From positions 81,672 through 145,671 of the forward strand of contig PXUB01000032.1 of assembly GCA_003009755.1 (NCBI GenBank): a stretch of 64,000 nucleotides of DNA. The letters run 5' to 3'. The position numbers and the translations under genes are program-made. The stretch comes from Thermoplasmatales archaeon SW_10_69_26. Lineage in GTDB: Archaea > Thermoplasmatota > SW-10-69-26. How positions within the stretch are numbered: position 1 is the first letter of the stretch; every line of letters starts with the position of its first letter. The notes beneath the pieces are model-generated. The model saw nothing but the letters and a program-made list of their open reading frames with translations. It searched no databases and was not told where the DNA came from. This document shows, one piece after another, positions 1,568 through 50,080 of the stretch.

Positions 1568-1996
1568 TAGACTGCCGGTCTTGTTTTGCTTACGCTCTCG
1601 CGCCGGCCTCCCGAGAGGACGAGCCCGGAAGCTCGTGCGAGGGAGCGTGGCAAAATCGCGGAGCCTGAGGAACGCAACCCTCGGGCGTGATCTCCGGGCA
1701 CGACAACGAGGGGGCCCGCCTTAGACCGGCGCACCAGAACATTTCCGGTCCCACGGTCTCCCCCTACAAGCGGTTGGCCAGGAGAAGTTCACCGGATCGA
1801 GGGGGAGCGGTCTCCGTGACCCCCCTCACGGCGAGGCCGCCCTCAGGCCGGTGACGACGCGAGGTCCCCACGTCCGCGGGTTGCAAGCGTTGTCGCCGTC
1901 GACCTCGAAAGGCCTGTGGGCCTTCCGTCGTCTCGGCTCCGCGCTTTCACCGCCTGAGGGCGGCGAGAGCCTAACCCAAGCATCGCCGGCAGTCTA
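1568..1996. mobile_element. MITE-like stem-loop element, copy A
   Basis: Bounded by TA dinucleotides (1568-1569 and 1995-1996). The ends are inverted: GACTGCCGG..., then a subterminal GCTCTCGC block, mirrored on the right as GCGAGAGC...CCGGCAGTC. No protein-coding frame is convincing. Copies B (24926-25300, opposite orientation) and C (49895-50080) share its blocks. Internal hairpins include 1619-1636 (ACGAGC/GCTCGT) and 1909-1924 (AAGGCC/GGCCTT), whose equivalents in the other copies use different but still complementary bases. The outermost bases match the ends of the IS630 element at 7874-9005, which suggests that transposase moved it. It fills the gap between the thiolase start and the secreted-protein gene. 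Confidence 0.75.
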
Positions 1997-2022
1997 GCTT
2001 GACGGCCCGGCGGAAGACGCGA

Positions 2023-2709
2023 TCAGCGTCGGCGCAAGGCGACGGCGCCGGCCACGAGGGCAAGCGGAGCGACCCAGGGACCGAACGGGATGCCGTTGCC
2101 GTCCCCGCCGCCGTCCTCGCCACCGTCGGTGGTGCCGTTGCCGCCGCTGCTGCCCCCGGTCGTCTCGTCGCCATCCGTGGCACCGCCGTCGGTGGTGCCG
2201 GCGTCGCTGGAGGCGACCGTGACGGGCAGGCTCGTCGTTCCCTCGGCGGAGGGGAACTCGCCGTTGCAGCTTCCCTCGGGCGGGCCGTAGTTGCCGCCGG
2301 GGAAGGTGCCCGTGACCGTGACCTCGCGGTCGCCGCCGGAAGCGGTGTTGGCGGCCTGCACGGTGACGGTGGTCTCCTGGGAGTTGTTGTAGCCGCCGGC
2401 CGCCGTCCCCGAGTTGTGGATCCCTTGCGTGTCCGAGAACACGAGCTCGGAGGGATCGGCCAGACCGGTGACGCCGTTCGGGTTGGAGACGCTCACGTTG
2501 ACCGGGAGCTCCTCGTTCTCGGCGCAACTGAAGTTGTCACCCGTCAACCGGACCAGCACCGTGACGTCCTTGGACTCGCCCGGCGACAGCTCGCCGGCTT
2601 CGTCTTGCGGTTCGAGCTCCACCGAGAAAGAGGGCTGCTGAGCAGCCGCCAGGCCAGCGATGGCAAGCAGCGCGGCGACCGTCAAAGCCCCGATCGTTCG
2701 TGAACCCAC
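2023..2709 (-). CDS. Secreted, C-terminally anchored protein of unknown function
   Basis: A GTG at 2709 is preferred because it puts the signal peptide (RTIGALTVAALLAIAGLAAA) at the N-terminus; the frame stays open to 2781. The mature part is a ~150-residue beta-rich, acidic domain with several N-x-S/T sequons (candidate AglB glycosylation sites) and Cys pairs. A low-complexity T/D/G/S linker follows (GTTDGGATDGDETT...), then a C-terminal hydrophobic helix ending in RRR. That architecture resembles archaeal surface proteins with PGF-CTERM-like anchors, though the tripartite motif is not exact (PFG instead of PGF). Probably an exported cell-surface protein. No enzymatic motif is seen. Confidence 0.7.
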   Translation of the reverse strand: MGSRTIGALTVAALLAIAGLAAAQQPSFSVELEPQDEAGELSPGESKDVTVLVRLTGDNFSCAENEELPVNVSVSNPNGVTGLADPSELVFSDTQGIHNSGTAAGGYNNSQETTVTVQAANTASGGDREVTVTGTFPGGNYGPPEGSCNGEFPSAEGTTSLPVTVASSDAGTTDGGATDGDETTGGSSGGNGTTDGGEDGGGDGNGIPFGPWVAPLALVAGAVALRRR

Positions 2710-2950
2710 GGAGTCACACCCACGCTGGTGGACGAGGTTCCGGCCCTTGACGATTGTGGATTCGGCCTCGAACACTCTCACCCACGGGTGTGGTCTGGGC
2801 CCCGGCCGACGTCCGGCCCCTCATCCCCCGCAAGGTCGCCAACCACGACCGTGACGTTGCTCTCTGCGATCGCTCGCGGCCTCGTCCGCCAGCGCCGGGT
2901 CAGGCAGCTGCTCGAGGCCCAGGACGATCCCGGCGACCTCGAACGCGGCT

Positions 2951-3319
2951 TCACGCCGGCTGGGACCGCTCGAGCTGGATCTGAGCAGCCCCCATCGTCC
3001 CGCTGATCGGTGGGTTGGGCTTGCGGACGCGGACGACGCACCGCCGCCAGTGCAGGCCCTCGAGCGCGTCGAGGATCTCCTCGGCCAGTCCCTCCAACAG
3101 CGGGTGCTCGTCCTCCGAGATGACGCGGTCGATGCGATCGTGGACCTCGCGGTAGTCGATCGTGCGATCCAACGAGTGAACCGAGCCCTCACCCATGGGG
3201 ATCTCCAAGTCCACGTCCACCTCGACGTGCGTGCCGACGGTGCGTTCCTCCTCGGTGTGGCCGATGCGGCCGAAGAAGCGCATCTCGTCGAGGCTCATCA
3301 GCGCGACGTCGTCGCTCAT
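2951..3319 (-). CDS. folB: Dihydroneopterin aldolase
   Basis: A 122-residue protein, the normal FolB size. Recognisable features are the N-terminal LDEMRFFGRIGHTEEER segment, the central T-IDYREVHDRI block and the C-terminal VVRVRKPNPPI strand typical of the FolB/DHNA fold. The enzyme cleaves 7,8-dihydroneopterin to 6-hydroxymethyl-dihydropterin and glycolaldehyde in folate synthesis. Its start overlaps the end of folP by 4 bp (ATGA), so it is the last gene of a folB-folP-folC-purN operon read leftwards. No folK is seen beside it. The 130 bp after its stop keep coding-like base bias in another frame but match nothing recognised. Confidence 0.9.
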   Translation of the reverse strand: MSDDVALMSLDEMRFFGRIGHTEEERTVGTHVEVDVDLEIPMGEGSVHSLDRTIDYREVHDRIDRVISEDEHPLLEGLAEEILDALEGLHWRRCVVRVRKPNPPISGTMGAAQIQLERSQPA

Positions 3320-4143
3320 CGTGGATCCAACGCCTCCGCCGTCCGCACCGCGTCCAGGGTCTCGGGTACATCGTGCACCCGAACGATGGCGGCCCCGTCG
3401 CGGGCCGCCAACGTCGCCACGGCCAGCGAGCCGGGCAACCGCTCGTCCACCTCGCGGTCCAGCAGGTCGGCGAACATCGACTTGCGGGACACGCCGACGA
3501 GGAGGGGGTAACCGAGACCGGCCAGCGAGGAGGTGGCGCGCAACAGCTCGAGGTTGTGCGCGAGCCGCTTGCCGAACCCGATCCCTGGATCGAGCGTGAT
3601 CGCATCCCGCTCGATGCCGGCCGCTCGCGCGGCCTCGGCTCGCTCCAGCAGGAACGCGGCGACCTCGGCGCGCACGTTCTCGTAGGAGGGATCGGCCTGC
3701 ATGACGTCGGGCGTGCCCTGCCGATGCATGAGCACGATGTCGGCCCCGTGGTCGGCGACCACGTCGAACATGCGCTCGTCGTCGCGCCCGGCGCTGACGT
3801 CGTTCACGATCGCCGCCCCGGCCTCCAGGGCGCGATCGGCCACCGCGGCCCGGCGGGTGTCGACGCTGATCGGCACGTCGACCACGTCGTCGATCGCCTC
3901 GACGGCGGGCACGACGCGCTCGAGCTCGTCCCTCTCGGGAACCGGATCGGCGCCCGGTCGGGTGCTTTCGCCGCCGACGTCGAGCACGTCGGCGCCCTGC
4001 TCGGCCATCCGGCGGGCCCGCCGGACGGCGTCCTCGGCCTCGGGGGCGCGGCTGTCGGCGTAGAAGCTGTCGGGGGTGACGTTCACGACGCCCATGACGA
4101 GCGGGCGCCCGGCCTGCGCGAACCGGTCGCGGATCGGGCCCAT
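3316..4143 (-). CDS. folP: Dihydropteroate synthase
   Basis: A 275-residue TIM-barrel pterin-binding enzyme. Signature segments are GVVNVTPDSF near the N-terminus, DVGGESTRPGA, the SVDTRR strand, IVNDVSAG, DPGIGFGK and the C-terminal LLVGVSRKSM with the conserved Ser-Arg-Lys. It joins hydroxymethyl-dihydropterin pyrophosphate to p-aminobenzoate or a related arylamine in folate/pterin synthesis. It overlaps folB by 4 bp and follows folC with a 1 bp gap, so translation is probably coupled. Length and motifs are standard. Confidence 0.95.
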   Translation of the reverse strand: MGPIRDRFAQAGRPLVMGVVNVTPDSFYADSRAPEAEDAVRRARRMAEQGADVLDVGGESTRPGADPVPERDELERVVPAVEAIDDVVDVPISVDTRRAAVADRALEAGAAIVNDVSAGRDDERMFDVVADHGADIVLMHRQGTPDVMQADPSYENVRAEVAAFLLERAEAARAAGIERDAITLDPGIGFGKRLAHNLELLRATSSLAGLGYPLLVGVSRKSMFADLLDREVDERLPGSLAVATLAARDGAAIVRVHDVPETLDAVRTAEALDPR

Positions 4144-4144
4144 C

Positions 4145-5434
4145 TCAGCCGACCAGGTCCGGCGCGATGTCGAGCACGCGGCCGGCGAGATAGAAGGAAC
4201 CGAACACGACCACGGCGTCCTCCGGGTTGGCGGTGCCGAGCATCGTCTTCAGCGCCGTGTGGATGTTGTGGACGGTGCGAACCCGCGAGCAGTGGCGCTC
4301 GGCCTCGCCGGCCAGCGCCTTCGCGTTCAGGCCGCGGTCGCCGCTTCCGGGCGGCTTGGTGACGAACACCTCGCGGCTCTCCGGCGCCATGATCTCCATC
4401 ATGGAGCCGTAGTCCTTGTCGCGAAGCGCGCCGAACATGATGAAGTAGCGCTCGAACTCCCTCTCCTGCAGGAAGGACCGCAGCGTCTTCACCGCGTCCG
4501 GGTTGTGGGCACCGTCGATGATGAACGCCGGCTCCTTCTGCGCGACGTCCATGCGGCCCGGCAGATCGGTGGCTTCGATCCCGGCGGGCACGCCGGCGTC
4601 CTCGGCCTCGAGATCCGTCTCCTCCCGCAGCAGCTGGAAGGTGTGCGCGGCGAGGGCGGCGTTCTCGGCCATGTGCTCGCCCGGCATCGAGGAATGCAGT
4701 TCCCCCCAGGGCGAGTCGGGGATGGTGAACCGGACGCCGTCGAGGTCGTTGGCCTGGATCTGCGGGGAGCCCAGCGAGCGAAGCACCTTCAGCGGCGCGC
4801 GTCGCTTCGCGGCCTCGCTCCACACGGACTTGAGTGCGAGCCCGTCGGCGCCGGTGACGACCGGCACACCTTTGCGCAGGATGCCGGCCTTCTCGCGGGC
4901 GATCTGCTCGTCGCTGGAGCCCAGGTGCTCGGCGTGCTCGATCCCGACGTTCGTGATGACGGTCGCCTCGGGGTCCCGGAGAACGTTCGTGGCGTCCTTC
5001 CTGCCGCCGAGCCCGACCTCGATCACGGCGTAGTCCACGTCGGCCTCGGCGAAGTGCACCAGCGCCATGGCCGTCAGGGTCTCGAAGAACGTCGGCTCGA
5101 GGCCGGCGTCCTCGGCCTGATCCATGACGCGCTGGGCGACGTCGGCGAACGTGTCCTCGTCGACGTTCTCCTCGTCGACGCGGATCCGTTCGGTGACGGT
5201 GTGGACGTGCGGGCTGGCGTACGTGCCGACGCGCTGCCCGGCCGAGACGAGCATGTTCGAGAGGAACGCGCACACCGACCCCTTGCCGTTGGTGCCGGCC
5301 ACGTGCACCGACTCGAACTGGTCCTGGGGGTTGCCCAGCGCGTCCAGCAGGTTCTCGATCGTGTCGAGCTCGAGGTTGATCTCTCGCTCGCGCAGGGCCT
5401 CCAGCCGTTCCATCGTGGACTCTGCCTCAGCCAT
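4145..5434 (-). CDS. folC: Folylpolyglutamate/dihydrofolate synthase (Mur ligase family)
   Basis: The ATG at 5434 (MAEAESTMERLEALRER) gives about 429 residues, typical of FolC. The open frame extends further into purN but loses homology there. The P-loop is VAGTNGKGSVCAFLSNML near residue 50, followed by SPHVHTVTERIRV, the EVGLGGRKDATN block and the C-terminal domain motif IIDGAHNPDAVKTL. The enzyme adds glutamate to dihydropteroate and to reduced folates in an ATP-dependent step. The start lies inside the end of purN (8 bp overlap) and the stop is 1 bp from folP, so it is mid-operon. Confidence 0.93.
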   Translation of the reverse strand: MAEAESTMERLEALREREINLELDTIENLLDALGNPQDQFESVHVAGTNGKGSVCAFLSNMLVSAGQRVGTYASPHVHTVTERIRVDEENVDEDTFADVAQRVMDQAEDAGLEPTFFETLTAMALVHFAEADVDYAVIEVGLGGRKDATNVLRDPEATVITNVGIEHAEHLGSSDEQIAREKAGILRKGVPVVTGADGLALKSVWSEAAKRRAPLKVLRSLGSPQIQANDLDGVRFTIPDSPWGELHSSMPGEHMAENAALAAHTFQLLREETDLEAEDAGVPAGIEATDLPGRMDVAQKEPAFIIDGAHNPDAVKTLRSFLQEREFERYFIMFGALRDKDYGSMMEIMAPESREVFVTKPPGSGDRGLNAKALAGEAERHCSRVRTVHNIHTALKTMLGTANPEDAVVVFGSFYLAGRVLDIAPDLVG

Positions 5435-6080
5435 CGTCAGCCACCTCCGGTACGATCCTCCCCTCGATGTCGACGTCTCCCTTGATGTGCACCCGTCCGT
5501 CCTCGATCGACAGCCGCCCCTCGGCGAACAGGCGGACGCTGGCGGGCAGGATCTCGTGCTCGGTCGCGAGGATCCGCTGGCTGAGCTGCTCCCGATCGTC
5601 GTCGGGGCGTACCGGGACCGCCGACTGGAGGATGATCGGGCCCGCGTCCACCTCTTCGGTGACGAAATGCGTCGTCGCACCAGCGACGCGGACGCCGGCG
5701 TCGAGGGCCTGGTGTTGGGCGTCCGTGCCGCGGAAGGAAGGCAAAAGCGCCGGGTGGATGTTGATCACGCGTTGCGGGAACGCAGAGAGGAACGTGGACG
5801 TGAGAATCCGCATGAAGCCGGCCAAGACCACGAGGTCGACATCGCGGTCCTCGAGCGCGTCGGCCAGCTCGGCGTCGTAGGCCTCGCGGTCCCTGCCGTC
5901 GGGGTCGAGGACCATCGTTTCCACGTCGAAGTGTCGCGCTCGCTCGAGCGCTCGAGCGTCGTCCTGATCGGAGACGACCACCTCGATGGACGCCGGCCCC
6001 AACCGGTCCCCCTGCTCGGCTTCGAGCAGGGCTCGGAGGTTGGTTCCGCGTCCGGAGGCGAGCACGGCGACGGAGAGCAT
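5427..6080 (-). CDS. purN: Phosphoribosylglycinamide formyltransferase
   Basis: A 217-residue PurN. The N-terminal LASGRGTNLRALL loop binds the ribotide. The catalytic triad is Asn107 and His109 in VINIHPALLPSFRGTD and Asp145 in THFVTEEVDAGPII. It transfers formyl from 10-formyl-tetrahydrofolate to GAR in purine synthesis, which explains its place at the head of a folate operon. It is the promoter-proximal gene. A TATA-like TTATAC lies at 6123-6128 in the ~200 bp spacer shared with the divergent helicase gene, but on which strand it acts is unclear. Confidence 0.95.
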   Translation of the reverse strand: MLSVAVLASGRGTNLRALLEAEQGDRLGPASIEVVVSDQDDARALERARHFDVETMVLDPDGRDREAYDAELADALEDRDVDLVVLAGFMRILTSTFLSAFPQRVINIHPALLPSFRGTDAQHQALDAGVRVAGATTHFVTEEVDAGPIILQSAVPVRPDDDREQLSQRILATEHEILPASVRLFAEGRLSIEDGRVHIKGDVDIEGRIVPEVADDG

Positions 6081-6256
6081 CGTGGATAGACCTTCCTCAG
6101 TACGTGCCTTAGGCTTGGCGGGTGGTTATACATTTCCCTCCGAGGGCGCGCAGGCGACCGCTATCCGTGGTAGGACGTGCCTAGGGACGTTCTCGGCGAC
6201 CGGGAGCCTGGCATGGGTCTCCGGGGCGAGCGCGTTCGCGGTTCCTGGTGCAAGGG

Positions 6257-6262
6257 TTATAC
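6257..6262 (+). promoter_or_regulatory. Putative TATA box of the helicase gene
   Basis: TTATAC, about 28 bp before the GTG at 6287, the spacing expected for an archaeal leaderless transcript. It is supported only by sequence and spacing. Confidence 0.4.
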
Positions 6263-6286
6263 GGAACCGTCGGGCTCCCAGGCCGC

Positions 6287-7876
6287 GTGGGTCACGACCA
6301 GGTCGACCTCGACACGTTCCTGGAGGAGGGCATCCCCGAGCCCGCGGACCCGGGCGCGACCGGTGAGCCTTCCTACGTCAGCCACCCGATGGTGGAGCCC
6401 GAGACGCTCGAGGAGCGCCCCTACCAGACCGAGCTGGCCGAGCAGGCCCACGGCCGTCGAACGCTGGTCGTGCTCCCGACCGGGCTCGGCAAGACGATGG
6501 TGGCGGCGTTGCTGGCCGCCGAGGTCCTGCAGAACCGCGAGGGCAAGGTCGTGTTCCTCGCCCCGACCCGGCCGCTGGTCCAACAGCACGAGGAGACCTT
6601 CGAGGAGCTGTTGCGCGCCCGGGACCAGGTCGCGCTCAGCGGCTCGGTCCCCGCCCAGCGTCGGGCCGAGCTCTTCGCGGAGAACCGGGTCATCTTCTCC
6701 ACGCCCCAGGGCCTGCGCAACGATCTCGAGGCTGGGCTCGTCGACATCGACGACGTCGGCCTGCTGGTCTTCGACGAGGCCCACCGCGCCGTCGGCGACT
6801 ACGCCTACGTCGACATCGGGCAACGCTACCGCTACGCCTGTCCCGAGGGCACCGTCCTCGGTCTCACCGCCTCCCCCGGCGGCGACGAGGAGCGCATCCA
6901 GGAGGTCGTCGACAACCTCGGCATCCACGAGATCCTCAGTCGCGACGCCGAGGACCCCAGCGTCAAGCCCTACGTCAAGGAGACGAAGGTCCGCTGGGTC
7001 AAGCTGCAGCTCACGCCTGTGATGGAGGCCGTGCAAGCCCGGCTGCAGAACGTCGTCGACGAGCGTGCCAAGCCCCTGAAAGAGGCCCGCTACCTCGAGC
7101 CCAAGCCCTACGTCTCCCGGACCGACGCGATCGAGGCCGGCAAGAAGATCCGGGCCGAGCTCGACGACGCCGAGAACAAGGGGCCGCTGTTCGGCATGTT
7201 GTTAAACCAGGGCGTCGTCATGCAGGCCCTGCACTGCCTCGAGCTCGTCGAGACGCAGGGTGTCGAGCCGTTGCAGACGTACCTCGCCCGCCTCATGCAG
7301 GACGAGGATCCCTCCCGCAGCGCGGAGGCCTTCGCCAAGGACCCCCAGGTCACGGACGTCTGGGCCCGCATCCAGGACTGGCCCCACCCCAGCCATCCCA
7401 AGATCGAGGCCTTGATCGAGACGTTGACCCGCGAGCTGGCCGACAACCCCGATGGCCTCGTCATCGTGTTCGCCCAGTACCGGGACACGATCAACTCGAT
7501 CCTCGAAGCCCTCGAGGACGAGGGCATCGACGCCGAGAAGTTCGTCGGCCAGTCCGACCGCGACGGCGACGAGGGCATGAGTCAGGACGAGCAAAAGGAG
7601 GTGCTCGACCGCATGCGCGCCGGCGAGTTCCGCGTGCTCGTCGCCTCCAGCGTCGCCGAGGAGGGGCTGGACATCCCCAGCGTGGACCTCGTCGTGTTCT
7701 ACGAGCCCGTGCCCAGCGAGATCCGGCTCATCCAGCGCCGCGGCCGCACCGGCCGCCAAAGCGTGGGCCGCATGGTCGTCCTCATCACCGAGGACACCCG
7801 CGACGAAGCCTTCATGCACGCCGCCATGAGCCGGGAGAAGAAGATGCGCCGCCTGGTCAAGGATCTGGGCGACTAG
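6287..7876 (+). CDS. Hef-type superfamily 2 helicase without nuclease domain
   Basis: The frame is open from 6248. The GTG at 6287 is preferred because a TATA-like TTATAC at 6257-6262 lies ~28 bp upstream, suggesting a leaderless start; the ATG at 6389 is an alternative. Helicase motifs are clear: RPYQTELAE (Q-like), LPTGLGKTM (Walker A), FLAPTRPLVQQH (Ia), LLVFDEAHRAV (II), LGLTASPGG (III), VIVFAQYRDT (IV), VASSVAEEGLDIPSVDLV (V) and LIQRRGRTGR (VI). This is the Hef/FANCM/Mph1 arrangement acting on stalled forks and branched DNA. Canonical archaeal Hef carries a C-terminal ERCC4 nuclease plus HhH, absent here: the protein ends at RRLVKDLGD. The stop codon TAG uses the TA target plus the first base of the IS630 element. 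The pre-insertion codon would have been TAA, so the IS did not truncate it. Confidence 0.87.
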   Translation: MGHDQVDLDTFLEEGIPEPADPGATGEPSYVSHPMVEPETLEERPYQTELAEQAHGRRTLVVLPTGLGKTMVAALLAAEVLQNREGKVVFLAPTRPLVQQHEETFEELLRARDQVALSGSVPAQRRAELFAENRVIFSTPQGLRNDLEAGLVDIDDVGLLVFDEAHRAVGDYAYVDIGQRYRYACPEGTVLGLTASPGGDEERIQEVVDNLGIHEILSRDAEDPSVKPYVKETKVRWVKLQLTPVMEAVQARLQNVVDERAKPLKEARYLEPKPYVSRTDAIEAGKKIRAELDDAENKGPLFGMLLNQGVVMQALHCLELVETQGVEPLQTYLARLMQDEDPSRSAEAFAKDPQVTDVWARIQDWPHPSHPKIEALIETLTRELADNPDGLVIVFAQYRDTINSILEALEDEGIDAEKFVGQSDRDGDEGMSQDEQKEVLDRMRAGEFRVLVASSVAEEGLDIPSVDLVVFYEPVPSEIRLIQRRGRTGRQSVGRMVVLITEDTRDEAFMHAAMSREKKMRRLVKDLGD

Positions 7877-9005
7877 ACTGCCGGACAGAATGTGCGTAAC
7901 TTATCGTGGCGTCCGATACTAACTCAAATAGGGGTGGGATGCCCTGTCAGCCTTGACGCTGACCCCGACCAAAAGGAACAACGACGCCTCGCCGCAGGCC
8001 AAGATCTACTGGACGGCAAACGCCAAGCCGACATCGCCGAAGGCTACGGCGCCACCCGCACCACCGCCCACCGCTGGGCGCACACCGTCGGAACCGAAGG
8101 CCTCGACGGCCTGAAAAGCACACGCACCAACGCCGGACGACCCCCGAAACTCGACGCCGAGAACAAACAACGCCTCGCCGAACTTCTCCAACGAGGCGCC
8201 CAAGCCCACGGCTGGGACACCGATCTGTGGACCCGCAAACGTGTGGCCCAGCTGATCGACCGGGCGTTCGACGTCGACTACTCTCCCCGACACTGCTCGC
8301 GGATTCTGCACGAGATCGGGTTCCGCCCGGTCAAACCCAAGCGCGTGGCCAACGAAAAGGACGAGGCCGAAAAACAGCGCTGGCTGGCCGAGGAGGCTGG
8401 AGAGCTGAAAAAAACCTAGCCGACGGTGCAACCGTCCTGTTCCCGGACGAGAGCACCTACCGCTTCACCCCCGTCCGCCAGCGCGGCTGGGCGCCCTACG
8501 GACAGCGACCGACCGTCGAGCACACCTACGGGGACTGGTGGACGGTGAGCGCGATCAGCGCCTTGGCGATCTGGATCGAGCCCGATGGCTCGTTAGGCAC
8601 GAAGGTCTTCTTCCGGTTGTACCCGAAGGAGAGCGTGAACAGTCGACACCTCCGGGATTTCCTGCACCAGGTTCGCTACCAGCGCGAGGGCGAGATCAGC
8701 GTGGTGTGGGATCGCGCCAGCCATCACCGCGCCCGGCGGGTGCAGCGGTTCTTCGCTTCCTACGAGCGGTTCAGCTCGGTGTTGTTGCCGGCATATTGTC
8801 CAGAGTTGAACTCGGACGAGGGGGTGTGGAATTGGTCGAAGACCAAGGATCTGGCCAACGCCTGTCCGAAGGATGTGGATGCCCTGGTGTCGGGGGTTCG
8901 AGGGCCCTTGCGTCGGCTCCAGCATCGACCGAGTGCGCAGTGGTGGTGTGTGCACGACTCCGAGTTCCCGATCGAAGAGTTACTCACATAATGACCGGCA
9001 GTCTA
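7874..9005 (+). mobile_element. IS630-family insertion sequence
   Basis: Flanked by TA (7874-7875 and 9004-9005), the IS630/Tc1-mariner target. The left end reads GACTGCCGGACAGAATGTGC and the right end, reverse-complemented, GACTGCCGGTCATTATGTGA, both continuing to GTAACT. It carries a transposase in two overlapping frames. It sits exactly between the convergent helicase and GVNGGG-repeat genes: removing it and one TA leaves GCGAC-TA-ACCGC, in which both genes would use the same TA in their stop codons. Its outer ends match the MITE-like elements of this window. Confidence 0.9.
7892..8991 (+). CDS. IS630 transposase made by -1 frameshifting
   Basis: The first frame (7892-8419) holds the helix-turn-helix part (RQADIAEGYGATRTTAHRW) and winged-helix linker (DTDLWTRKRVAQLID). 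It ends ...GELKKT-stop. The second frame, in -1, continues from the run of seven A at 8408-8414 into the DDE catalytic domain: Asp in LFPDEST, Asp in SVVWDRASHH and Glu in PELNSDEGVWNW. A -1 slip on A AAA AAA joins ...ELKK to NLADGATVLFPDEST in one product of about 366 residues. IS630 elements commonly use this arrangement. Both ends and the active-site residues are intact, so the element may be active. The exact start codon is uncertain. Confidence 0.85.
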
Positions 9006-10784
9006 ACCGCTTTCGGTGGCGACCGAGAGGTCGCGGTCGAGCATCGCCCCCCACACCCCCCGCGGTGTCCGGCTGCAATCCGTGCACGCGAGATCGGGAT
9101 CCTCGTACCGGTCACCGGTCCCGTCCCCGTCGACCAGCAACCCGTTCTCGCCGTTCCAGTCACCGTGCATGCAGGGGTCATCGCAGGCGAGGTCCTCCCC
9201 CACGGCGGCCCGGTAGGCGTCCACGCCCCCGAGGTCCACCAGCGAGGACCCCCAGCCGGCGGTCGCTCCACCGTTGGTCCCCCAAACGCCCGGGTAGGTC
9301 TCGCAGCGGGCTTGGCACAGCGCGTGGACGTCGACGCCGGCCTCGTAGACGTCATCGCCGCCGGCGTCCACCAGGCGTCCGACACCGAGGTGCCCTCCCC
9401 CGTTGGCCCCATGCCCTCCGGCGATGCTCAGGCATCGGCTGAGATGGGAGGCGTCGCCCAGACACTCGGTCGTGGCGTTCGTCCCGGCCTGGTACACGTC
9501 GTCGCCGTCCGAGGAGACGAGACTGCCCGAGCCGGAATAGCCGCCGCCGTTCACGCCTAGGCCTCCGGCCACCGCCGAGCACTTGGACCCCTCGCAGGTG
9601 ACCGATGCGTTGACGCCGGCGAGGAACGCGTCCTCGCCCCCGCCGTCGATCAGCGAACCAACGCCGACGTGGGCGCCGCCGTTGACGCCTGCGCTGCCGG
9701 CGCGGGCCACACAGAACTCCGCCTCGCACCGCTCCTCCGCCTCGTGCCCGGCGAGGTAGCGGTCGGTTCCCTCGCCTGCGTCGACGAGTAAGCCGATCCC
9801 GTTGTCCGCTCCGCCGTTGACGCCGCGTGCGTTCGCGTGGTAGGTGTCGTTGCCGGTGGCGTCCACGAGCACGCCCGTGCCCTCGAACCCGCCGCCGTTG
9901 ACGCCACAGCACCGCGGATCGCTTGGCTGGCCGTACGTGTCGTCGCCGCCGAGGTCCACGACCGCCGCGGCGGGGAACGTTGCGCCGGTGCCGCCGGCGT
10001 TGTTCTCGTACTCGTCGTCGCCTCCGAAGCTCACGATGAGCGCGCAGTCGTTCGCAAACGTGCGGCTCTCGTCACTGGTGTCGAGGGCGACGGCAGGGCA
10101 TGCGTCGACGGCCGGACGAGCCGCGGAGGTCGAAGATTCCGCTACCATGGCCAAGTTCTCCACCGCATTCAGGAAAGCGGACCGAGCGGCGAAGACGTCG
10201 GCGAGTTCGCCGCCCTCGACGTGGGGGAAGGGATCGAGGCCCCCGTCGAAACCAGGAACCGCCCCCGTCCCGGCAGCTGGTGAAAGGCGAGCAGGGGAGG
10301 CTTGGTCGTCGGTGAGCTTTTTGGCCACGCTGGTATCCGACACGGCCTCGAGCCGGAGGAACGTCGTGACGAGGTCGGCAAGCGCGTCCGCGAGACCCGG
10401 GGACCGTTGCTCGACGATCTGGGCGGCGAGGCGATCCCCGAGGTCGAGGATCGTCGCGTGGCGGTGGGTCAGGGATTCGAGGGCCGCGAACAAGGACGAC
10501 GCCGAGCCCGTTGTCGGAGGTTCGTCCGACGGGATGCCGAGATCCCCGCTCTGCTGACGAGCCACGGCCTCGGCCACGTCCAGCGATGCAACAGCTGGAA
10601 TCTCATCTTCGGTATCCGACGCGCCCTCGTCCGCGATCCCGGCTCCGTGGGCGTCGCTCACCCTTTCCGGAACGAGGGTACCGGCCGCACTCGCCGCGGG
10701 AGCGAGGATCATCACAACAGCGAGGGCGACCGAAACGCCCCTCAGCCGCCGAGCACGTTGGCCGAAAGAGAGGATATCCGTCAC
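9003..10784 (-). CDS. Secreted protein with repeated GVNGGG / GDDxY motifs
   Basis: A 593-residue protein with an N-terminal signal peptide (GVSVALAVVMILAPAASAAG). Residues ~60-230 are Ala-rich and probably helical. From ~240 to the end there are about seven imperfect units built on (G/A)(V/A)NGGGxxGxG(S/L)LVDxGGDDxYxAG with an acidic GDD(T/V/E)Y turn. This resembles calcium-binding, beta-solenoid-forming repeats. Cys pairs recur between units (CEAEFC, CEGSKC, CQARC, CDDPC, CTDC), suggesting disulfides outside the cell. The stop codon TAG overlaps the right end of the IS630 element. No family is recognised. It is the first of several large secreted repeat proteins on this strand. Confidence 0.75.
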   Translation of the reverse strand: MTDILSFGQRARRLRGVSVALAVVMILAPAASAAGTLVPERVSDAHGAGIADEGASDTEDEIPAVASLDVAEAVARQQSGDLGIPSDEPPTTGSASSLFAALESLTHRHATILDLGDRLAAQIVEQRSPGLADALADLVTTFLRLEAVSDTSVAKKLTDDQASPARLSPAAGTGAVPGFDGGLDPFPHVEGGELADVFAARSAFLNAVENLAMVAESSTSAARPAVDACPAVALDTSDESRTFANDCALIVSFGGDDEYENNAGGTGATFPAAAVVDLGGDDTYGQPSDPRCCGVNGGGFEGTGVLVDATGNDTYHANARGVNGGADNGIGLLVDAGEGTDRYLAGHEAEERCEAEFCVARAGSAGVNGGAHVGVGSLIDGGGEDAFLAGVNASVTCEGSKCSAVAGGLGVNGGGYSGSGSLVSSDGDDVYQAGTNATTECLGDASHLSRCLSIAGGHGANGGGHLGVGRLVDAGGDDVYEAGVDVHALCQARCETYPGVWGTNGGATAGWGSSLVDLGGVDAYRAAVGEDLACDDPCMHGDWNGENGLLVDGDGTGDRYEDPDLACTDCSRTPRGVWGAMLDRDLSVATESG

Positions 10785-13678: not shown

Positions 13679-13694
13679 GGCCGAAGGCTGAGTT

Positions 13695-24556: not shown

Positions 24557-24928
24557 ATGGATCGTCGCCGGGGCCTCGTGGCCCTCGGCGTCGGCCTCGT
24601 CGTGTCGTTGGCCGTCGTCTGGGCCTTCTTCGCCACGCTGCTCCCGTTTGCGGGGCCCAGCACTGGTCATCCGTGGCGAGGCGGCGTCCCGTTCGTCGCC
24701 GTCGTCTTCGCCGGCTTCGGTCTCGCCCGGCGGATCGAGGGATCCGGGCGGCGGATCGGCGTCCTCGTGGGGCTCCCGGGCGCTGCGATCGGCGGCGTGC
24801 TGGGCGTGCTCGCCGCCCTGCGCAGGGCCCACCTGCTCGCTGTTGCAGGCCTCGTCGTCGTCTACCTGGCGTCGGCGAGCCTCGGGGGCTGGCTCGGGGG
24901 TCGGCGCGGGATGGTGGCCGGCCGCTAG
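24557..24928 (+). CDS. Small integral membrane protein, unknown family
   Basis: 123 residues with about four hydrophobic segments (ALGVGLVVSLAVVWAFFATL, GVPFVAVVFAGFGLA, GVLVGLPGAAIGGVLGVLAAL, LLAVAGLVVVYLASASLGG) and basic loops. It reads like many short archaeal DUF membrane proteins with glycine-rich helices. The stop TAG is formed by the TA target and first base of MITE copy B; in the pre-insertion sequence the stop would also be TAG. It is convergent with nadM. Function unknown. Confidence 0.65.
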   Translation: MDRRRGLVALGVGLVVSLAVVWAFFATLLPFAGPSTGHPWRGGVPFVAVVFAGFGLARRIEGSGRRIGVLVGLPGAAIGGVLGVLAALRRAHLLAVAGLVVVYLASASLGGWLGGRRGMVAGR

Positions 24929-25300
24929 ACTGCCGGCTGTGCTTGGGTTAAGCTCTCGCTCGGCCTCAGGCGGTGAAAGCGCGGAGCCGAGACGAAGGAG
25001 TAGCCGGAGGCTACTTCGATGTCGGAGACCGTGGGACCGGAAATGTTCTGGTGCGCCGGTCTGAGGCGGGCAATCTCGTTGTCGCCCCCTGAGATCTCGC
25101 CCGTCCGAGCGATCTCAGGCACGCCCGGATCTCTGATCCGGGCAGTGTCCGTCGAAAACCCACAGGGGGTTTCCTTCCTCGGGCTCCGCGACCTTGCCTC
25201 GCTCCCTCGCACGAGCCCTCCGGGCTCGTACTCTCGGCAGACCGTGCCCGGTCTCCCGAGACCGGCGCGAGAGCTTAAGCAAAACACGTCCGGCAGTTTA
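24926..25300. mobile_element. MITE-like stem-loop element, copy B
   Basis: Flanked by TA (24926-24927, 25299-25300). The left end is GACTGCCGGCTGTGCTTGGG and the right end, reverse-complemented, AACTGCCGGACGTGTTTTGC. Both are followed by TTAAGCTCTCGC, so the terminal inverted repeat is ~35 bp with internal mismatches. It is a complete copy in opposite orientation to copy A. Hairpins include 24999-25015 (AGTAGCC/GGCTACT) and 25211-25229 (ACGAGCCC/GGGCTCGT), plus two extra ones near 25090-25150 that copy C lacks. No protein frame. It separates two convergent genes whose stop codons shared CTAG before insertion. Confidence 0.8.
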
Positions 25301-25861
25301 GTCCTTCTTGTACGGCGGCTCGGTCATCGCTTCCTCGGTCCCGTTGGCAGCATCCGAGCTGGTGATCTCCTTCAGCCTGCGGATGCCGTCGACCTCGCCG
25401 ACGATGCGAGCCACGGGATCAGGTACCAGATCCTTCCAAGTCTGCCTGTCCTGATGCATGAGCTGGCGGATTTGGGTCGCCTCGTAGCGCTCGCGGTCGA
25501 CGAGATCGAACTCCCGGACCTCGTAGCCGGCCTCGTGGAACAACCGCTTCGGCAGCGGGTTGTTCATGTAGCAGACGTCGAAGGGCGGGCAGAACGTCTC
25601 GACGTGGCTCACCCACAGCGAGTTGCGGTGGATGTCCGGCACCGGGATGATCGTCGCGTGGATGTCTCGCTCGACGAGGCTCTCGTCCAGCATCCACACC
25701 CGCTCGCCGGCCGTGAACGGATTCTCCTTCGTGTGCGAGTACTGGCTGGAGCCGACCACGATCACCAGGCGGTCCACGTCGGCCACGATCTCCTCGATCA
25801 CGGAGAGGTGGCCAAGGTGGGGCGGCTGGAACCGACCCAGGAACATGCCACGCGTGGGCAT
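25298..25861 (-). CDS. nadM: Nicotinamide-nucleotide adenylyltransferase, archaeal type
   Basis: The ATG at 25861 (MPTRGMFLGRFQPPHLGH) is preferred because a TATA-like CTTTAAG lies at 25884-25890, ~26 bp upstream; a start at 25873 is also open. The nucleotidyltransferase signature is GRFQPPHLGHL (the HxGH motif), with GSSQYSHTKENPFTAGER binding substrate and the HQDRQTWKDLVP segment in place of the bacterial ISSTxxR. It makes NAD from NMN and ATP. Length ~187, slightly longer than typical (~170-180) because of a Lys/Glu-rich tail. The stop TAA uses the TA of the MITE insertion. Confidence 0.93.
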   Translation of the reverse strand: MPTRGMFLGRFQPPHLGHLSVIEEIVADVDRLVIVVGSSQYSHTKENPFTAGERVWMLDESLVERDIHATIIPVPDIHRNSLWVSHVETFCPPFDVCYMNNPLPKRLFHEAGYEVREFDLVDRERYEATQIRQLMHQDRQTWKDLVPDPVARIVGEVDGIRRLKEITSSDAANGTEEAMTEPPYKKD

Positions 25862-25883
25862 CAAGCCGGTCAACGCCCGGGGT

Positions 25884-39151: not shown

Positions 39152-39183
39152 CGCTGTTCGTCGACCACAACGCGTGGCCCCTC

Positions 39184-39678: not shown

Positions 39679-39709
39679 CTGGACGAACATCCTTTTCGGC
39701 ACGCCATCC

Positions 39710-41452
39710 ATGGTGACCCGTCCCATGCCCTCGTCCAGCGTGATCGATCCTCGACCCGGGGACGACGAGAACTGGTACCGCGAGGACCCGCCCTTGCAGC
39801 AGCTGCTGGCTCTACACGTTGACGAGGCCACGCTGGGAGCCGCCGAGCACCGGCTCGACGACCTCGGCGAGCTGGCGCCGGCCGACCTGGACCGGTGGGC
39901 GCGCGAGGCCGACCGCCACGAACCGACGCTCGAGCGCCGATCCCCGACGGGCGAACGCGTGGACCGCGTCGACTTCCATCCCGCCTACGAGAACCTGCGG
40001 CTGGCCGCGCGCATCAACGGCGTGTTCACCGCCAGCTGGCACGAGATGGGCGAGGCCGAGCGCGCCCCGCGAGCGCTCACGTTCGCGCTGGGCTACCTCT
40101 ACGCGCAGGCCGAAGCCGGCTACTACTGCCCGGCCTGCATGACCGACGGGGCCGCCTTCGTGCTCGACCGCCACGCCCCCGAGCCGCTGGCCGAGCGCTT
40201 CGTCCCCCGCCTGGTCAGCCGGGACCCCGACGAGGGGATCGAGGGCGCCATGTACCTGACGGAGAAGGAGGGGGGTTCCGACGTGGGCGCCAGCACGCGC
40301 ACCCGAGCCCGGCAGGCCGAGGACGGCACCTGGCGCCTGACCGGCGAGAAGTGGTTCGCCTCCAACTGCACCGCCGAGGTCGCCATGGCCCTGGCGCGCA
40401 TGCCCGACGGCGAGGAGGGCACCGAAGGGCTGGGCCTGTTCCTCGTTCCGCGGCACCTGTCCAACGGCTCCCCCAACCCCGGCCTCCACCTCGAGCGGCT
40501 CAAGGACAAGCTCGGCGTCCAGAGCATGCCCACCGGCGAGATCGTGCTCGACGAGGCCCACGCCCACCTCGTCCAGGGCGCCGGCTCCGGGTTCAAGGCG
40601 ATGGCCGAGATGGTGAACCTCTCCCGCCTGTACAACGCCGTCGCCAGCGTCGCGGTGGCCCGCCGGGCCCTGCGCGAGGGCCAACGCGCCGGCCGCCAAC
40701 GCGAGACCTTCGGCCAGCCCCTGCACGAGCACGCGCTGTTCCTGCGCGACCTCGTCGAGCTCACCGTCGACGTCGAGGGCGGCCTCGCCTTCACGCTCGA
40801 CCAGGCCGAGGTCTTCGACCGCTGGGCCGAGGGCGAGGAAGACGCCCGCGCCCCGCTGCGGATCCTGACCCCGTGCGCGAAGGCGATGACCGCCAAGCTC
40901 GGCGTCGCGGCCGCCAGCGAGGGCTGCGAGCTGCTGGGCGGGCAAGGCTACATCGAGGAGTACGTGACCCCGCGCCTTTTGCGCGACGCCCAGGTCTTGC
41001 CGATCTGGGAGGGCACGACGAACATCCAGGCGCTGGATCTGCTGCGCGCCGTCGCCCGGGACCGGGCGCTGCCCGGCTTCCTCGCCCACAGCTCGGCCCG
41101 GTTGGCCGAGGCCGAGGCCGAGGGCCACGAGGGGCTCGAACCCGCGATCGCTCGCGTCCGCGAGGGGTACGAGCGGATCGAGCAGGCCGGCGAGCGGCTG
41201 GCCTCCGTCGACCGCGATACAGCGGAGGCGATGGCCATCGATCTCACGCGGGACGCCTACCACGTCCACGCCGCCGCGCTGCTGGCCCGCCGAGCCGCCC
41301 ACCACCCGGACGACGATCGAGCGCGCGAGGTGGCCCACCTGTATGCGGCCCGCCACGTCGCCGAGGACCGCAGCCTCGGCCGACGCGCGGTCCGGCAGGC
41401 GCTGGCCGACCACGGGACCGAGATCGCATACCCAGCCACGTCACACAGCTAG
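39710..41452 (+). CDS. Acyl-CoA dehydrogenase, AidB-like
   Basis: 580 residues, longer than standard acyl-CoA dehydrogenases (~380-400) and similar to AidB/FadE-like enzymes. Features: GAMYLTEKEGGSDVGASTRT and GEKWFASNCTAEVAM (FAD-binding beta domain), RLKDKLGVQSMPTGEI, RQRETFGQPLHEH, and the C-terminal GCELLGGQGYIEEY...VLPIWEGTTNIQALDLL with the conserved Glu-Gly-Thr flavin contact. An extra C-terminal helical region of ~100 residues follows. Likely FAD-dependent oxidation of an acyl-CoA, with uncertain substrate. Starts 32 bp after the VKOR gene, possibly co-transcribed. Confidence 0.9.
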   Translation: MVTRPMPSSSVIDPRPGDDENWYREDPPLQQLLALHVDEATLGAAEHRLDDLGELAPADLDRWAREADRHEPTLERRSPTGERVDRVDFHPAYENLRLAARINGVFTASWHEMGEAERAPRALTFALGYLYAQAEAGYYCPACMTDGAAFVLDRHAPEPLAERFVPRLVSRDPDEGIEGAMYLTEKEGGSDVGASTRTRARQAEDGTWRLTGEKWFASNCTAEVAMALARMPDGEEGTEGLGLFLVPRHLSNGSPNPGLHLERLKDKLGVQSMPTGEIVLDEAHAHLVQGAGSGFKAMAEMVNLSRLYNAVASVAVARRALREGQRAGRQRETFGQPLHEHALFLRDLVELTVDVEGGLAFTLDQAEVFDRWAEGEEDARAPLRILTPCAKAMTAKLGVAAASEGCELLGGQGYIEEYVTPRLLRDAQVLPIWEGTTNIQALDLLRAVARDRALPGFLAHSSARLAEAEAEGHEGLEPAIARVREGYERIEQAGERLASVDRDTAEAMAIDLTRDAYHVHAAALLARRAAHHPDDDRAREVAHLYAARHVAEDRSLGRRAVRQALADHGTEIAYPATSHS

Positions 41453-41571
41453 GCGGACAGGGAGCCTCAGCCCGGCCACGAGGGCCAACCCAGCGACCGG
41501 GGCGCGCAGAGGCAGCGCTGCCTCGCATCGGTCCCCTGCGTCCTCGTGAGGGCCTGACCGTTGCCGTTCGG

Positions 41572-42267: not shown

Positions 42268-42288
42268 GGCGCGGCCTCTTGGACGAGC

Positions 42289-42585: not shown

Positions 42586-42689
42586 CGTTCACCAGCTCGA
42601 CGACCGAAGGGAGCCTGGCGGGATGAAAGTGACGCAGGCCACGATGCGGCCCCGAGGGTCCCCAAGCGGTCTCGAGGACGAACAGCTTG

Positions 42690-42912: not shown

Positions 42913-42957
42913 AACGACAGATGGGCCTGCGCCCCTGACTCCACGCAGGTGAGATAA

Positions 42958-44769: not shown

Positions 44770-44808
44770 AACGACGAGGCTGCCTGACGCCGCTGGTCGG
44801 CACCACCG

Positions 44809-46590: not shown

Positions 46591-48788
46591 GCCAACCGCT
46601 CGAAGATCCGCCGGACGAACCCGGCCTCGCGGTCGCCCGAGTCGACGATCAACAGCGGCGCATCGATCTGGCGGATCTGATCGCTCGAGAGGTTCTCGAT
46701 CCCGGCGCTGAACCCCGACGTGCGGCGTGAGCCGATGACGAGCGAGGCCTCCTTGATCGCGTCCGGGAGCTCGGTCCAGTCCTCGTCCACGCGCACGATC
46801 CGCGTGTCGGTCGAGACCTCGCAGAGGTCGGCCAGCTCGTCACCGTAGGCGTACAGCGAGGCCTCGCGCTGCTCGGCGAGCTCGTCCTCGGCGACGAGCA
46901 GGAACCGGATCGAGGCGCCGGTGGACTTCGCGATCGCGTTCGCCATCTGCACCTTCGTCGGATCGAGCGGTCCTCGGCCGGTGACCACCTCGACCAGCTC
47001 GAGGTCCGGCCAGCTGTCGCCGGGCCCGTGGCGGAGGAGGATCGTGTTCACCGAGCGAGCCTCGCCGTCGTACGTCCAGCTCACGATCGGGTTCCGGCCG
47101 CGGTCGTCGGCCTCGGCCACCACGAGCCCGATGTTGTGACTCTCGACGTAGTTCCGTAGCGCCCGACGCCGGTCGTGGCTGACGACCTCGCCGATGGTGA
47201 CGTCGATCTCCCTCCCCTCGGCGATGCGCCCCACCCGCTCCTCGAAGGCGATGTCCTCCGGCGTCTGGTCGCGCGCGGCCAGATCCAGCGACAGCTGATC
47301 GGGCACCTCTTCGAACGCGAGGATCCGGATGTCCGTCTCGGCACCGTCTCGCACGTCGTGGGCCAGCTGGAGGAGATCTTTTAACCGCTGGTCGGGGATC
47401 GTCTCCTCCACCGCGATCAGGACCTCGGCCGGCCGCTGGGCCGATATCTCCGTCTCGGCCTCCTCCAGGTGGATCGAGCGTGCCCCCCGGCGGATGGCGT
47501 CCCGACCCACGCCCTCGCGCTTGGTGCGATCGCGAGCGTAGAACTGGTAGTAGGCGGTCCCGGCGAGGATCAGGCCGACGGCGCCGACGAACGGGACGAC
47601 GCCCATCTGGGTCAGCAGGACGATCCCGCCGACGATCCCGACGAGCTGGACCCACGGGTACAACGGGGAGCGGAAGCTGGGTTCGTACCACTCGGCCTCG
47701 CCTTCCCGCATCGCGATCAGCGCGACGTTGATGAACACGAAGACGAGGATCTTGAACGCGCTCGCGAGCTTCGCGAGCTCGACGACGGGGATCGTGGCGA
47801 TCAACAACAACAGGAGGGTGCCGGTCACCGAGATCGCTGCCACGGGCGTCCGGAACTTGTCGCTGATCTTCTGGAGACCGTCGGGAGCCAGTTTGTCGCG
47901 GCTCATCGCCAGCGGGTAGCGCGAGGAGGACAGCAGGCCGGCGTTGGCCATCCCGGTCAACGCCAGCACCGCCGTCACCGCGATGACGACGACCCCGGTC
48001 CGCCCGAGGAACGCCCCGGCGGCGTCCGCCATCGGGGTCAGGGACTTGCTGATCGAGCCCGGCTCGACGACGCCCACGATGACCGTCACGATGAGCGCGT
48101 AGACCACCATCATGATCGCGATCGAGCCCAGGATCCCGAGCGGGATGTTCCGACCGGGGTCCTCCACCTCCTCGGCGACGCTGGCGATCTTGGTCACGCC
48201 AGCGTAGGATACGAACACGAACCCGGTCGCCCCCAGCAGGCCGCCCAGCCCCTTCTTGAAGATGGGGTCGAAGCTGCCGACCGTGATCGACATGCTGCCG
48301 GTGGCGATGAACCACATCAGGACGGCCAGGACGCCGGACACGATGGCCGCCTGCAAGGTGCCGGTCTGCTTGACACCGAAGATGTTCAACGCGATCAGGC
48401 CCGCACCCAGCGCGAGCGCGACGAGTTTCGTCGGCAGCGCCGCGAAGAGCACGAGGTAGGCGCCGAGCCCGACGAGCGCGAACGCGGACTTGAACGTCAA
48501 CGAGAACCAGACCCCGATGCCGGACAAGGTGCCCATGAAGGGCCCCATCGCCCGGTCGATGTAGAGGTAGGTCCCGCCGGCTTCCGGCAGCGCGGTCGCC
48601 ATCTCGGCTTTCGAGAGGGCAGCGGGCAGCGCGATCAGGCCCGCCAAGACGTAGGCGATCATGACCGCCGGGCCGGCCATCTTCGTGGCCAGCCCCGGCA
48701 GGACGAAGATCCCGCTTCCGAGCATGGCCCCGATGCTGATCGTCAGCGTCGCGTAGAGGCCGAGATCGCGTTCGAGTTCCTTGCCCAT
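46584..48788 (-). CDS. APC amino-acid permease with C-terminal UspA domains (first copy)
   Basis: The ATG at 48788 (MGKELERDLGLYATLT) is the natural APC start; the frame is open to 48860. Twelve transmembrane segments, with the APC signature ISIGAMLGSGIFVLPG in helix 1 and AEEVEDPGRNIPLGI in helix 6. After ~residue 440 come two UspA-like alpha/beta domains (VLIAVEETIPDQRLKDLLQL..., FLLVAEDELAEQ...LVIGSRRTSGFSAGIENL). Fused APC-Usp transporters are common in haloarchaea and relatives. Substrate unknown; the UspA part may sense ATP or AMP. Adjacent to the antiporters. Confidence 0.9.
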   Translation of the reverse strand: MGKELERDLGLYATLTISIGAMLGSGIFVLPGLATKMAGPAVMIAYVLAGLIALPAALSKAEMATALPEAGGTYLYIDRAMGPFMGTLSGIGVWFSLTFKSAFALVGLGAYLVLFAALPTKLVALALGAGLIALNIFGVKQTGTLQAAIVSGVLAVLMWFIATGSMSITVGSFDPIFKKGLGGLLGATGFVFVSYAGVTKIASVAEEVEDPGRNIPLGILGSIAIMMVVYALIVTVIVGVVEPGSISKSLTPMADAAGAFLGRTGVVVIAVTAVLALTGMANAGLLSSSRYPLAMSRDKLAPDGLQKISDKFRTPVAAISVTGTLLLLLIATIPVVELAKLASAFKILVFVFINVALIAMREGEAEWYEPSFRSPLYPWVQLVGIVGGIVLLTQMGVVPFVGAVGLILAGTAYYQFYARDRTKREGVGRDAIRRGARSIHLEEAETEISAQRPAEVLIAVEETIPDQRLKDLLQLAHDVRDGAETDIRILAFEEVPDQLSLDLAARDQTPEDIAFEERVGRIAEGREIDVTIGEVVSHDRRRALRNYVESHNIGLVVAEADDRGRNPIVSWTYDGEARSVNTILLRHGPGDSWPDLELVEVVTGRGPLDPTKVQMANAIAKSTGASIRFLLVAEDELAEQREASLYAYGDELADLCEVSTDTRIVRVDEDWTELPDAIKEASLVIGSRRTSGFSAGIENLSSDQIRQIDAPLLIVDSGDREAGFVRRIFERLAY

Positions 48789-48935
48789 GGCGGACGAGCC
48801 CGTGCTCCTCCGACCCCGCAGCGGCGCGCCCTGCATAAGCCGTGGAGGTTCGTCCAGCATTTGTGCTAGACCGCGAACCCGCGCCTGGCGCCCATCCGAG
48901 GTTGTTTCCGGGTCGACCGGCTAGGCGGCCCAAGC

Positions 48936-49205
48936 ATGGCCGAGATGCCCCTCTACGAGGCCATCGTCCGCACCGCGGTCGCCCTGCTGAGCATCTTCCT
49001 GTTCGGCGTCGTCTACGTCGCCTGGCGCCGGCGCCCGACCGCGAGGATGCGCTGGGTGCTGGCGGCGTTCGCGATCTTCCTGGCCGAGGGCCTGGTCCTG
49101 CTCTACGAGGTCTTCGTCCAGGACACGAGCCTCACGGAGAGCATCTTCTACCTCTTCCAGTTCGCCGAGCTCGTGGTTCTCTCGATCGCGGTCCTCCGCC
49201 GGTGA
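48936..49205 (+). CDS. Small three-helix membrane protein paired with a winged-helix regulator
   Basis: 89 residues: three transmembrane helices (TAVALLSIFLFGVVYVAW, WVLAAFAIFLAEGLVLLYEV, IFYLFQFAELVVLSIAVL) with a basic loop RRRPTARMR between 1 and 2. Haloarchaea often encode such a small protein directly before a winged-helix regulator. Here the gap is only 4 bp. A membrane sensor or anchor for the regulator is an inference. Confidence 0.7.
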   Translation: MAEMPLYEAIVRTAVALLSIFLFGVVYVAWRRRPTARMRWVLAAFAIFLAEGLVLLYEVFVQDTSLTESIFYLFQFAELVVLSIAVLRR

Positions 49206-49209
49206 CACC

Positions 49210-49764
49210 GTGAGCCAGCCCCCTCTCGACCTGGACGTCCGCCGACGCATCTACGGGCGCATCCGAGAGGACCCCGGCCTGCACCTGCGCGAGCTGAGCC
49301 GCGCGCTCGACGTCCCCCTGTCGACGCTCCGCCACCACCTCGACGTCTTGGAGGAGGCCGACGTCGTCACGGTCGAAAGCGAGGGCACGTTCAAGCGCTA
49401 CTTTCCGGCCGAGGACCTCTCGGAGGGGGACAAAAGCCTCCTGTCCGTCCTCCGCCGGGAGAAACCACGCGCGATCCTGTTGGACCTTCTCGCGCACGGG
49501 GGCGAGGCTCGCTACGGAGAGCTCGAGGACAGCCTCGGGTACCCCGCGAGCACGCTGGGCATGTACCTCAAGGAGCTCCGCGAGCGCGGCCTGGTCGACC
49601 GCCAGCCCGTGGGACGGACGAGCGTCTACCGCGTCGTGGACGAACGCCGCCTGCACCGGCTGCTCGTCACCTACGAGGAGAGCTTCTACGACGCCTGGGT
49701 CGACCGCGTCCTCGAGATCGTCGAGGAGATCAACTCCAAGGAGGAGGAGCCGGACGACGAGTGA
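49210..49764 (+). CDS. Transcriptional regulator with two winged-helix domains
   Basis: 184 residues, GTG start. The first winged helix (residues ~8-70) contains GLHLRELSRALDVPLSTLRHHLDVLE. The second (~85-150) contains RYGELEDSLGYPASTLGMYLKELRERGLV. A short acidic helical tail ends in KEEEPDDE. The ArsR/MarR-like double layout is common in archaea. Likely DNA-binding; its target could be the permease or antiporter genes on either side. Co-transcribed with the small membrane protein. Confidence 0.85.
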   Translation: MSQPPLDLDVRRRIYGRIREDPGLHLRELSRALDVPLSTLRHHLDVLEEADVVTVESEGTFKRYFPAEDLSEGDKSLLSVLRREKPRAILLDLLAHGGEARYGELEDSLGYPASTLGMYLKELRERGLVDRQPVGRTSVYRVVDERRLHRLLVTYEESFYDAWVDRVLEIVEEINSKEEEPDDE

Positions 49765-49894
49765 GAGACGACGGGCGGGCCTGCCGGCCTGGGGAAGCTC
49801 GGGCCGGCCCCCCTGAGGGTCTCCGCCAGCGTACGTGTCAGAGGGCCCAGATCCCTGGCCCGATAGACGACGGGGCGATGTCCGCCAACCGGAA

Positions 49895-50080
49895 TAGACT
49901 GCCGGACGTGTTTTGCTTAAGCTCTCGCGCCGGTCTCGGCAGACCGGGCACGGTCTTCCGAGAGTACGGGCGCCAAGCCCGTGCGAATGAGCGAGGCAAG
50001 GTCGCGGAGCCCGAGGAAGGAAACCCCCTGTGGGTTTTCGACGGAGGGCGACAACGAGATTGCCCGCCTCAGACCGGCGC
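49895..50080 (+). mobile_element. MITE-like stem-loop element, copy C (truncated)
   Basis: The left end TA-GACTGCCGGACGTGTTTTGC and subterminal TTAAGCTCTCGCGCCGG match copy B. The match continues through AGACCGGGCACGGTCT, a hairpin at 49966-49982 (ACGGGC/GCCCGT), the GAAACCCCCTGTGGGTTTTC hairpin and CGACAACGAGATTGCCCGCCT. It stops at about 50080 in CAGACCGGCGC; no right end is present. The remaining ~105 bp to the permease stop at 50188 have nothing recognisable. Confidence 0.75.

Follow-up and report, generated by a model that had tools for sequence, protein, structure and literature searches.

Three short repeats within a 64,000-nucleotide stretch of an archaeal genome (hereafter the window) raise the question of what they are, where they insert, and why their hairpins should stay paired while the paired bases change. 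A preliminary description had aligned the three as a MITE-like family with compensatory differences between corresponding hairpins, and had proposed that they carry an undescribed noncoding RNA. On reading the respective stretches of the window, we found every quoted hairpin of the three copies in place, including the additional ones of copy B that copy C lacks and that correspond to two middle modules (Table 1). The three copies belong to one family as supposed, A and B being complete and C truncated: the latter matched the family query only at query positions 3-155 and 216-250 (blastn).

Table 1. Positions in the window of the three MITE copies, their hairpins and the IS630-family insertion sequence
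Feature	Position	Strand	Remarks
MITE copy A	1568..1996	+	429 bp, complete, TIR to TIR, TA at either end; TIR TAGACTGCCGG at both ends; covariance-model match to right arm
Hairpin H2 of copy A	1619..1636	+	ACGAGC...GCTCGT; slot compared across 19 copies
Right-arm tip hairpin of copy A	1909..1924	-	AAGGCC CACA GGCCTT, right end inward
IS630-family insertion sequence	7874..9005	+	same TIR (TAGACTGCCGG...CCGGCAGTCTA), inner end TGCGTAAC; probable mobiliser
IS630 transposase ORF 1, helix-turn-helix part	7892..8419	+	HTH_33 1.5e-20, HTH_32 1e-12; stops just past slippery run CTGAAAAAAACC
IS630 transposase ORF 2, DDE catalytic part	8413..8991	+	DDE_3 9.1e-23; -1 frame relative to ORF 1
MITE copy B	24926..25300	-	375 bp, complete, orientation opposite to A and C
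Right-arm tip hairpin of copy B	24999..25015	+	AGTAGCC GGA GGCTACT
Two middle hairpin modules of copy B	25090..25150 (about)	-	S5 GAGATCGC...GCGAGATCTC; S4 CCCGGATCAGAGATCCGGG
Hairpin H2 of copy B	25211..25229	-	ACGAGCCC GGA GGGCTCGT
MITE copy C, left arm only	49895..50088 (right limit approximate)	+	without right arm and right TIR
Hairpin H2 of copy C	49966..49982	+	ACGGGC...GCCCGT

The nature of these elements can be read from their ends. The terminal inverted repeat (TIR) of the family is GACTGCCGG, and TAGACTGCCGG is common to the MITEs and the insertion sequence (IS) at 7874-9005, which carries the helix-turn-helix and DDE_3 domains expected of the IS630 family (profile search). Copies A and B terminate in TAGACTGCCGG...CCGGCAGTCTA, save for one end of B that reads TAAACTGCCGG instead. 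The inner ends of the IS, TGCGTAAC and, inward from the right, TGAGTAAC, are similar to those of a second MITE subfamily (TGCGTAAC). Insertion is at TA, with duplication of these two bases: nearly every complete element is bordered by TA on either side, and the preceding base is C in 83 of 102 ends, which defines CTAG as the target. The MITEs themselves (83-672 bp) contain no transposase gene. With shared TIRs, a TA/CTAG target and a resident IS630, the designation as MITE-like was borne out and could be sharpened: A, B and C are members of a non-autonomous IS630/Tc1-mariner-type MITE family of an archaeon. The transposase locus is present as a single copy in this genome and, judging from the shared ends, presumably mobilises the MITEs in trans. 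It is split into two overlapping ORFs, which a programmed -1 frameshift, a trait of some IS630 members, could plausibly join at the run CTGAAAAAAACC within their overlap. Only relatives with 33-36% identity to the transposase turned up in 194 genomes of the phylum, and none was confirmed in a broad genome-contig collection.

With copy B as the blastn query, 87 pieces were retrieved from its own genome (2.8 Mb, 49 contigs) and a covariance model built on right arms gave 99 matches; as many contigs start or stop inside a copy, the family count is a lower bound. The TIR pattern matched 59 and 60 times on the two strands, compared to 29 and 29 times for a control pattern. In all, 102 TIR ends with adjoining arm sequence and 28 TIR-to-TIR elements could be collected, the IS being included in both sets. 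The architecture is modular: in the minimal form, of 101 bp, two arm ends are joined, and hairpin modules are added in longer forms, while the 672-bp copy contains a foreign insert. Relative to their flanks, elements are enriched in hairpins 3.6-fold (stems of 6 or more) to 18-fold (stems of 10 or more). Among all genomes searched, the family was found in this one only. No members were found in 40 relatives; covariance-model searches of 292 genomes of the phylum and of 41 genomes returned, outside the own genome, merely borderline scores of 18-25 bits, about chance level; and TIR pattern scans of broad genome-contig and viral-contig collections (own genome excluded), as well as a plasmid search with window positions 1500-3500, gave no match. 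Besides, foreign sequences apparently interrupt MITE copies inside hairpins, either the tips or H1 (G000 C22:180, C25:172164, C11:33152, C15:56851, C35:27257, C36:10814, C4:61546 and C14:16713-17384), the insert in C14 apparently being flanked by an 8-bp target duplication (CTCGGGAG). It looks as if the hairpins of MITE copies attracted insertions of other mobile elements.

When coding frames at the element ends were scored by codon usage trained on long ORFs of the window, the TIR's own TAG or TAA was the stop codon of the abutting gene at 44 of the 101 usable ends. At another 25 ends, a stop codon lay no more than 240 bases away; 13 pointed toward the start side of a gene, 17 were next to no clear gene, and a gene read on into the element at only two. 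Altogether, of the 84 ends to which a gene could be assigned, 69 face its 3' end. Stops were supplied by 5 of 68 native CTAG sites and by 1 of 420 sampled TA sites, so that the excess at element ends is pronounced against either comparison (Fisher 1.2e-7 and 2e-34, respectively). The two TIRs of copy B, for example, are the stop codons of convergent genes at 24557-24928 (+) and 25298-25873 (-, archaeal NadM), and both convergent neighbours of the IS likewise end in its TIRs, as judged from ORF coordinates. Since the genes abutting an element so often end in TIR stops, we conclude that the element inserts mainly on stop codons and hands the stop back, which is a new finding on this family. This placement may reflect both target choice and the loss of harmful insertions, two contributions that the data do not separate. 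As to the genes themselves, NCBIfam matches of host genes comprised archaeal NadM, archaeal STT3 and Hef, which identifies the host as an archaeon. The ORF at 6248-7876 encodes a Hef-like helicase that lacks the nuclease portion and takes its stop codon from an IS630 TIR, and a convergent ORF at 9003-10784 terminates at the other one. CTAG is strongly depleted throughout the window (1-64000), with 23 sites versus 188 expected from base composition.

The preliminary description had further set AAGGCC/GGCCTT of copy A against AGTAGCC/GGCTACT of copy B. This difference is real, and it belongs to a hairpin, at the tip of the right arm, that covaries strongly over many copies. Across 22 distinct arms, 93.4% of cells were paired, with both-side changes at five of the seven pairs; the covariation score was 0.53, dropping to 0.21 on shuffling and to no more than 0.12 on sliding, and a set with diverged copies gave similar values. 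On a tree derived from the flanks only, pairing amounted to 92.6% (slightly lowered by a mis-centred diverged copy, C31:29840), compared to 55.8% (sd 8.4) under independent stem substitutions (p<0.001). There were 47 double-changed cells versus 14 under this null, and some 25 double changes were spread over about 12 branches, compared to about 12 single losses, numbers that assume no hairpin exchange and, as copies do recombine, are too high if hairpins were swapped whole. A pairwise covariation scan of 26 right arms (first set) was weak, its best true pair reaching E=0.065 and non-pairs scoring equally, because the changes are linked in blocks. Repeated change of the stem with pairing retained suggests that the pairing of the right-arm tip, and not its sequence, has been kept in evolution. 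A trivial alternative would be that the pairing mirrors the symmetry of long terminal inverted repeats, whose likeness the transposase requires; the left arm does seem homologous to the right arm in reverse, and in some elements the inner TIR variants agree. This alternative is very unlikely, however, since the covarying units are local hairpins with loops of 3-5 bases inside one arm.

Recombination could offer another account, in which ready-paired hairpins are swapped between copies and little compensatory evolution takes place within the family. Mosaic subfamilies do exist (left arm type 2 is joined to right arm type 1 in C20:13289-13642), the changes are block-like, and the mismatched tip in C19:5710 is chimeric. 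Yet the stem types of the tip form a network of mostly single base-pair steps, with one two-pair step and including wobble intermediates, which would be unexpected from unrelated cassettes. We therefore regard such an exchange as a rather unlikely cause of the pattern.

The remaining hairpins behave differently from one another. For the left-arm hairpins (H1, H2 and the L tip), three double-changed pairs were counted versus 2.9 expected under a tree-based null. The change from ACGAGC/GCTCGT to ACGGGC/GCCCGT, highlighted earlier as directly compensatory, is a true A-T to G-C pair but part of no excess over that null. Among the middle modules, S6 occurs in three forms, all of them paired, and S7 in a series of A-T, G-U and G-C; judged by inspection, both likely fit compensation. 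Mismatches occur in S4 and S5 of many copies. We therefore consider covariation to be demonstrated at a single hairpin position, probable at two more and absent elsewhere. Accordingly, the earlier notion that the hairpins keep pairing beyond chance and relatedness stands for the right-arm tip (93% versus 56%) and, by inspection, for S6/S7, but not for the left arm and several decayed middle hairpins.

The strength of folding bears on whether the elements encode an RNA of their own. Relative to dinucleotide shuffles, folding was pronounced for copy B (z -8.4/-7.6 as RNA on the two strands, -9.0 as DNA) and copy A (-6.0/-5.9), with z -3.4 for copy C. An Rfam search of the window gave no match except tRNA, which leaves the MITE copies without an Rfam family. 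(An ARAGORN tRNA call at 40789-40884, with an odd anticodon and no Rfam call, is probably false.) Strong folding, covariation in one hairpin and the lack of an Rfam match would all agree with a dedicated structured noncoding RNA that rides on a mobile element and has its own promoter. In whole elements, however, the two strands do not differ in folding (25 elements, p=0.13), length and modules are highly variable, the copies are positioned at gene ends, and we noted no conserved unpaired core outside TIR and arms, all of which makes a dedicated RNA highly improbable. The selected noncoding RNA of the preliminary description thus remains unsupported as a gene in its own right, given the equal strands, the position at gene 3' ends and the fact that template switching gives a like pattern. 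Individual arms do fold better inward from the TIR than outward, on the right (23 of 25) as well as on the left (25 of 30), although the advantage shrinks to a mean z of only -1.2 and -0.7 after composition correction. Inward is the direction in which an mRNA extending from the abutting gene into the element would be read, and we take this bias as no more than a hint of an mRNA 3'-end role of the arms. A reading of the hairpins as intrinsic terminators was set aside, as no long T run lies beside them in the copies read by eye.

What, then, maintains the tip hairpin? It could be held by selection on the fold, or by template-switch repair during replication. In the latter case, stable mini-hairpins would prime intrastrand template switching, one stem half would be copied from the other, and compensatory pairs would accrue without selection. 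Template switching can indeed give rise to hairpins and preserve them, with compensatory changes, the loop being kept and not inverted (PMC8794818). Two loop-closing pairs of the tip are near-constant (CC...GG) and the loops are of few types (mostly GGA, GCA, GTA, ACA and AGA) while the stem varies, and whole elements lack a strand preference, as would be anticipated from such neutral maintenance. Against it speaks that, within the same elements, neither the hairpins of the left arm nor S4/S5 have been repaired, and that inverted loops (e.g. TCC) were absent from about 34 right-arm tips, although an intrastrand mechanism would not invert them. The near-constant closing pairs and mostly GGA-type loops suit selection just as well. 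Overall, neutral maintenance is a serious contender, with somewhat less than an even chance of being correct. In diverged copies whose TIRs can no longer be recognised, the tip hairpin persists with other bases (e.g. ACGTACCC GGA GGGTACGT and GAGGTAGCC CGA GGCTACCTC), albeit in a sample recovered with models containing the hairpin and hence biased toward copies retaining it. Because tips stay paired in these copies, we slightly favour selection on the fold.

Taken together, we probably face an archaeal IS630-type MITE that inserts mainly at stop codons, preserves the pairing of its tip hairpin through fold selection or template switching, and may lend its arms to host mRNAs as 3' ends. The resident transposase would move the elements in trans, mainly onto stop codons, where the TAG or TAA of the TIR takes over as the stop of the gene. 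With a stop codon and an inward-reading hairpin array at each end, either arm would furnish the mRNA of the gene next to it with a folded 3' untranslated part. An insertion would then be harmless or mildly useful, because each arm would serve as a folded mRNA 3' end. A more far-reaching version, namely a mobile element with a portable gene 3' end at either end, whose tip hairpin is selected as RNA in host messages and whose takeover at stop codons is harmless, is conceivable but can be put forward only tentatively. Either way, the family amounts to a natural experiment within one genome, comprising tens of hairpin copies whose sequence, but not pairing, has changed, and these copies allow one to ask directly whether selection or template switching during replication causes compensatory change.

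In the open-access literature, we found no description of an archaeal IS630-type MITE of such kind, nor of stop-codon supply combined with compensatory hairpin change, while RUP, BOX and Correia/NEMIS elements share separate features with it. According to PMC3049150 and PMC2229807, RUP has IS630-like TIRs and a TA target, is folded, numbers about 100 copies and is thought to be trans-mobilised by IS630-Spn1, yet it is a simple, AT-rich unit of 107 bp said to prefer IS elements or their vicinity. The archaeal family differs from it in being 83-672 bp long, GC-rich, modular and placed on stop codons. BOX elements, as portrayed in PMC3049150, are likewise modular (67-637 bp), with paired, folded ends and a suggested role in co-transcribed untranslated regions; they bear lower similarity to IS TIRs and are made up of boxA/B/C, whereas the archaeal family consists of other modules with exchanged sequences. 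Correia/NEMIS and ERIC are also MITEs with transcribed hairpins proposed to act on neighbouring mRNAs, and the portions of PMC2229807 consulted contained no claim of TIR-supplied stops or compensatory hairpin change for either. Both differ from the archaeal family in their TIRs and hosts. REP sequences are 20-40 bp in size and represent a different mobile type. With its 83-672 bp and IS630-type TIRs, the archaeal family does not conform to the palindromic unit of 20-40 bp that characterises REP/BIME, which it resembles in that these, too, are palindromic repeats, with proposed functions in mRNA stabilisation and transcription termination (PMC3733652). Finally, IS630 is known for a site preference, with TA duplicated within 5'-CTAG-3' (Tenzen and Ohtsubo 1991, as cited in PMC2170065). 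In contrast to this known CTAG preference as such, the sites occupied by the archaeal family are chiefly stop codons, and the stop is restored by the TIR. Using a rare CTAG target at stops and returning the stop would be a way for a mobile element to live in a gene-dense genome.
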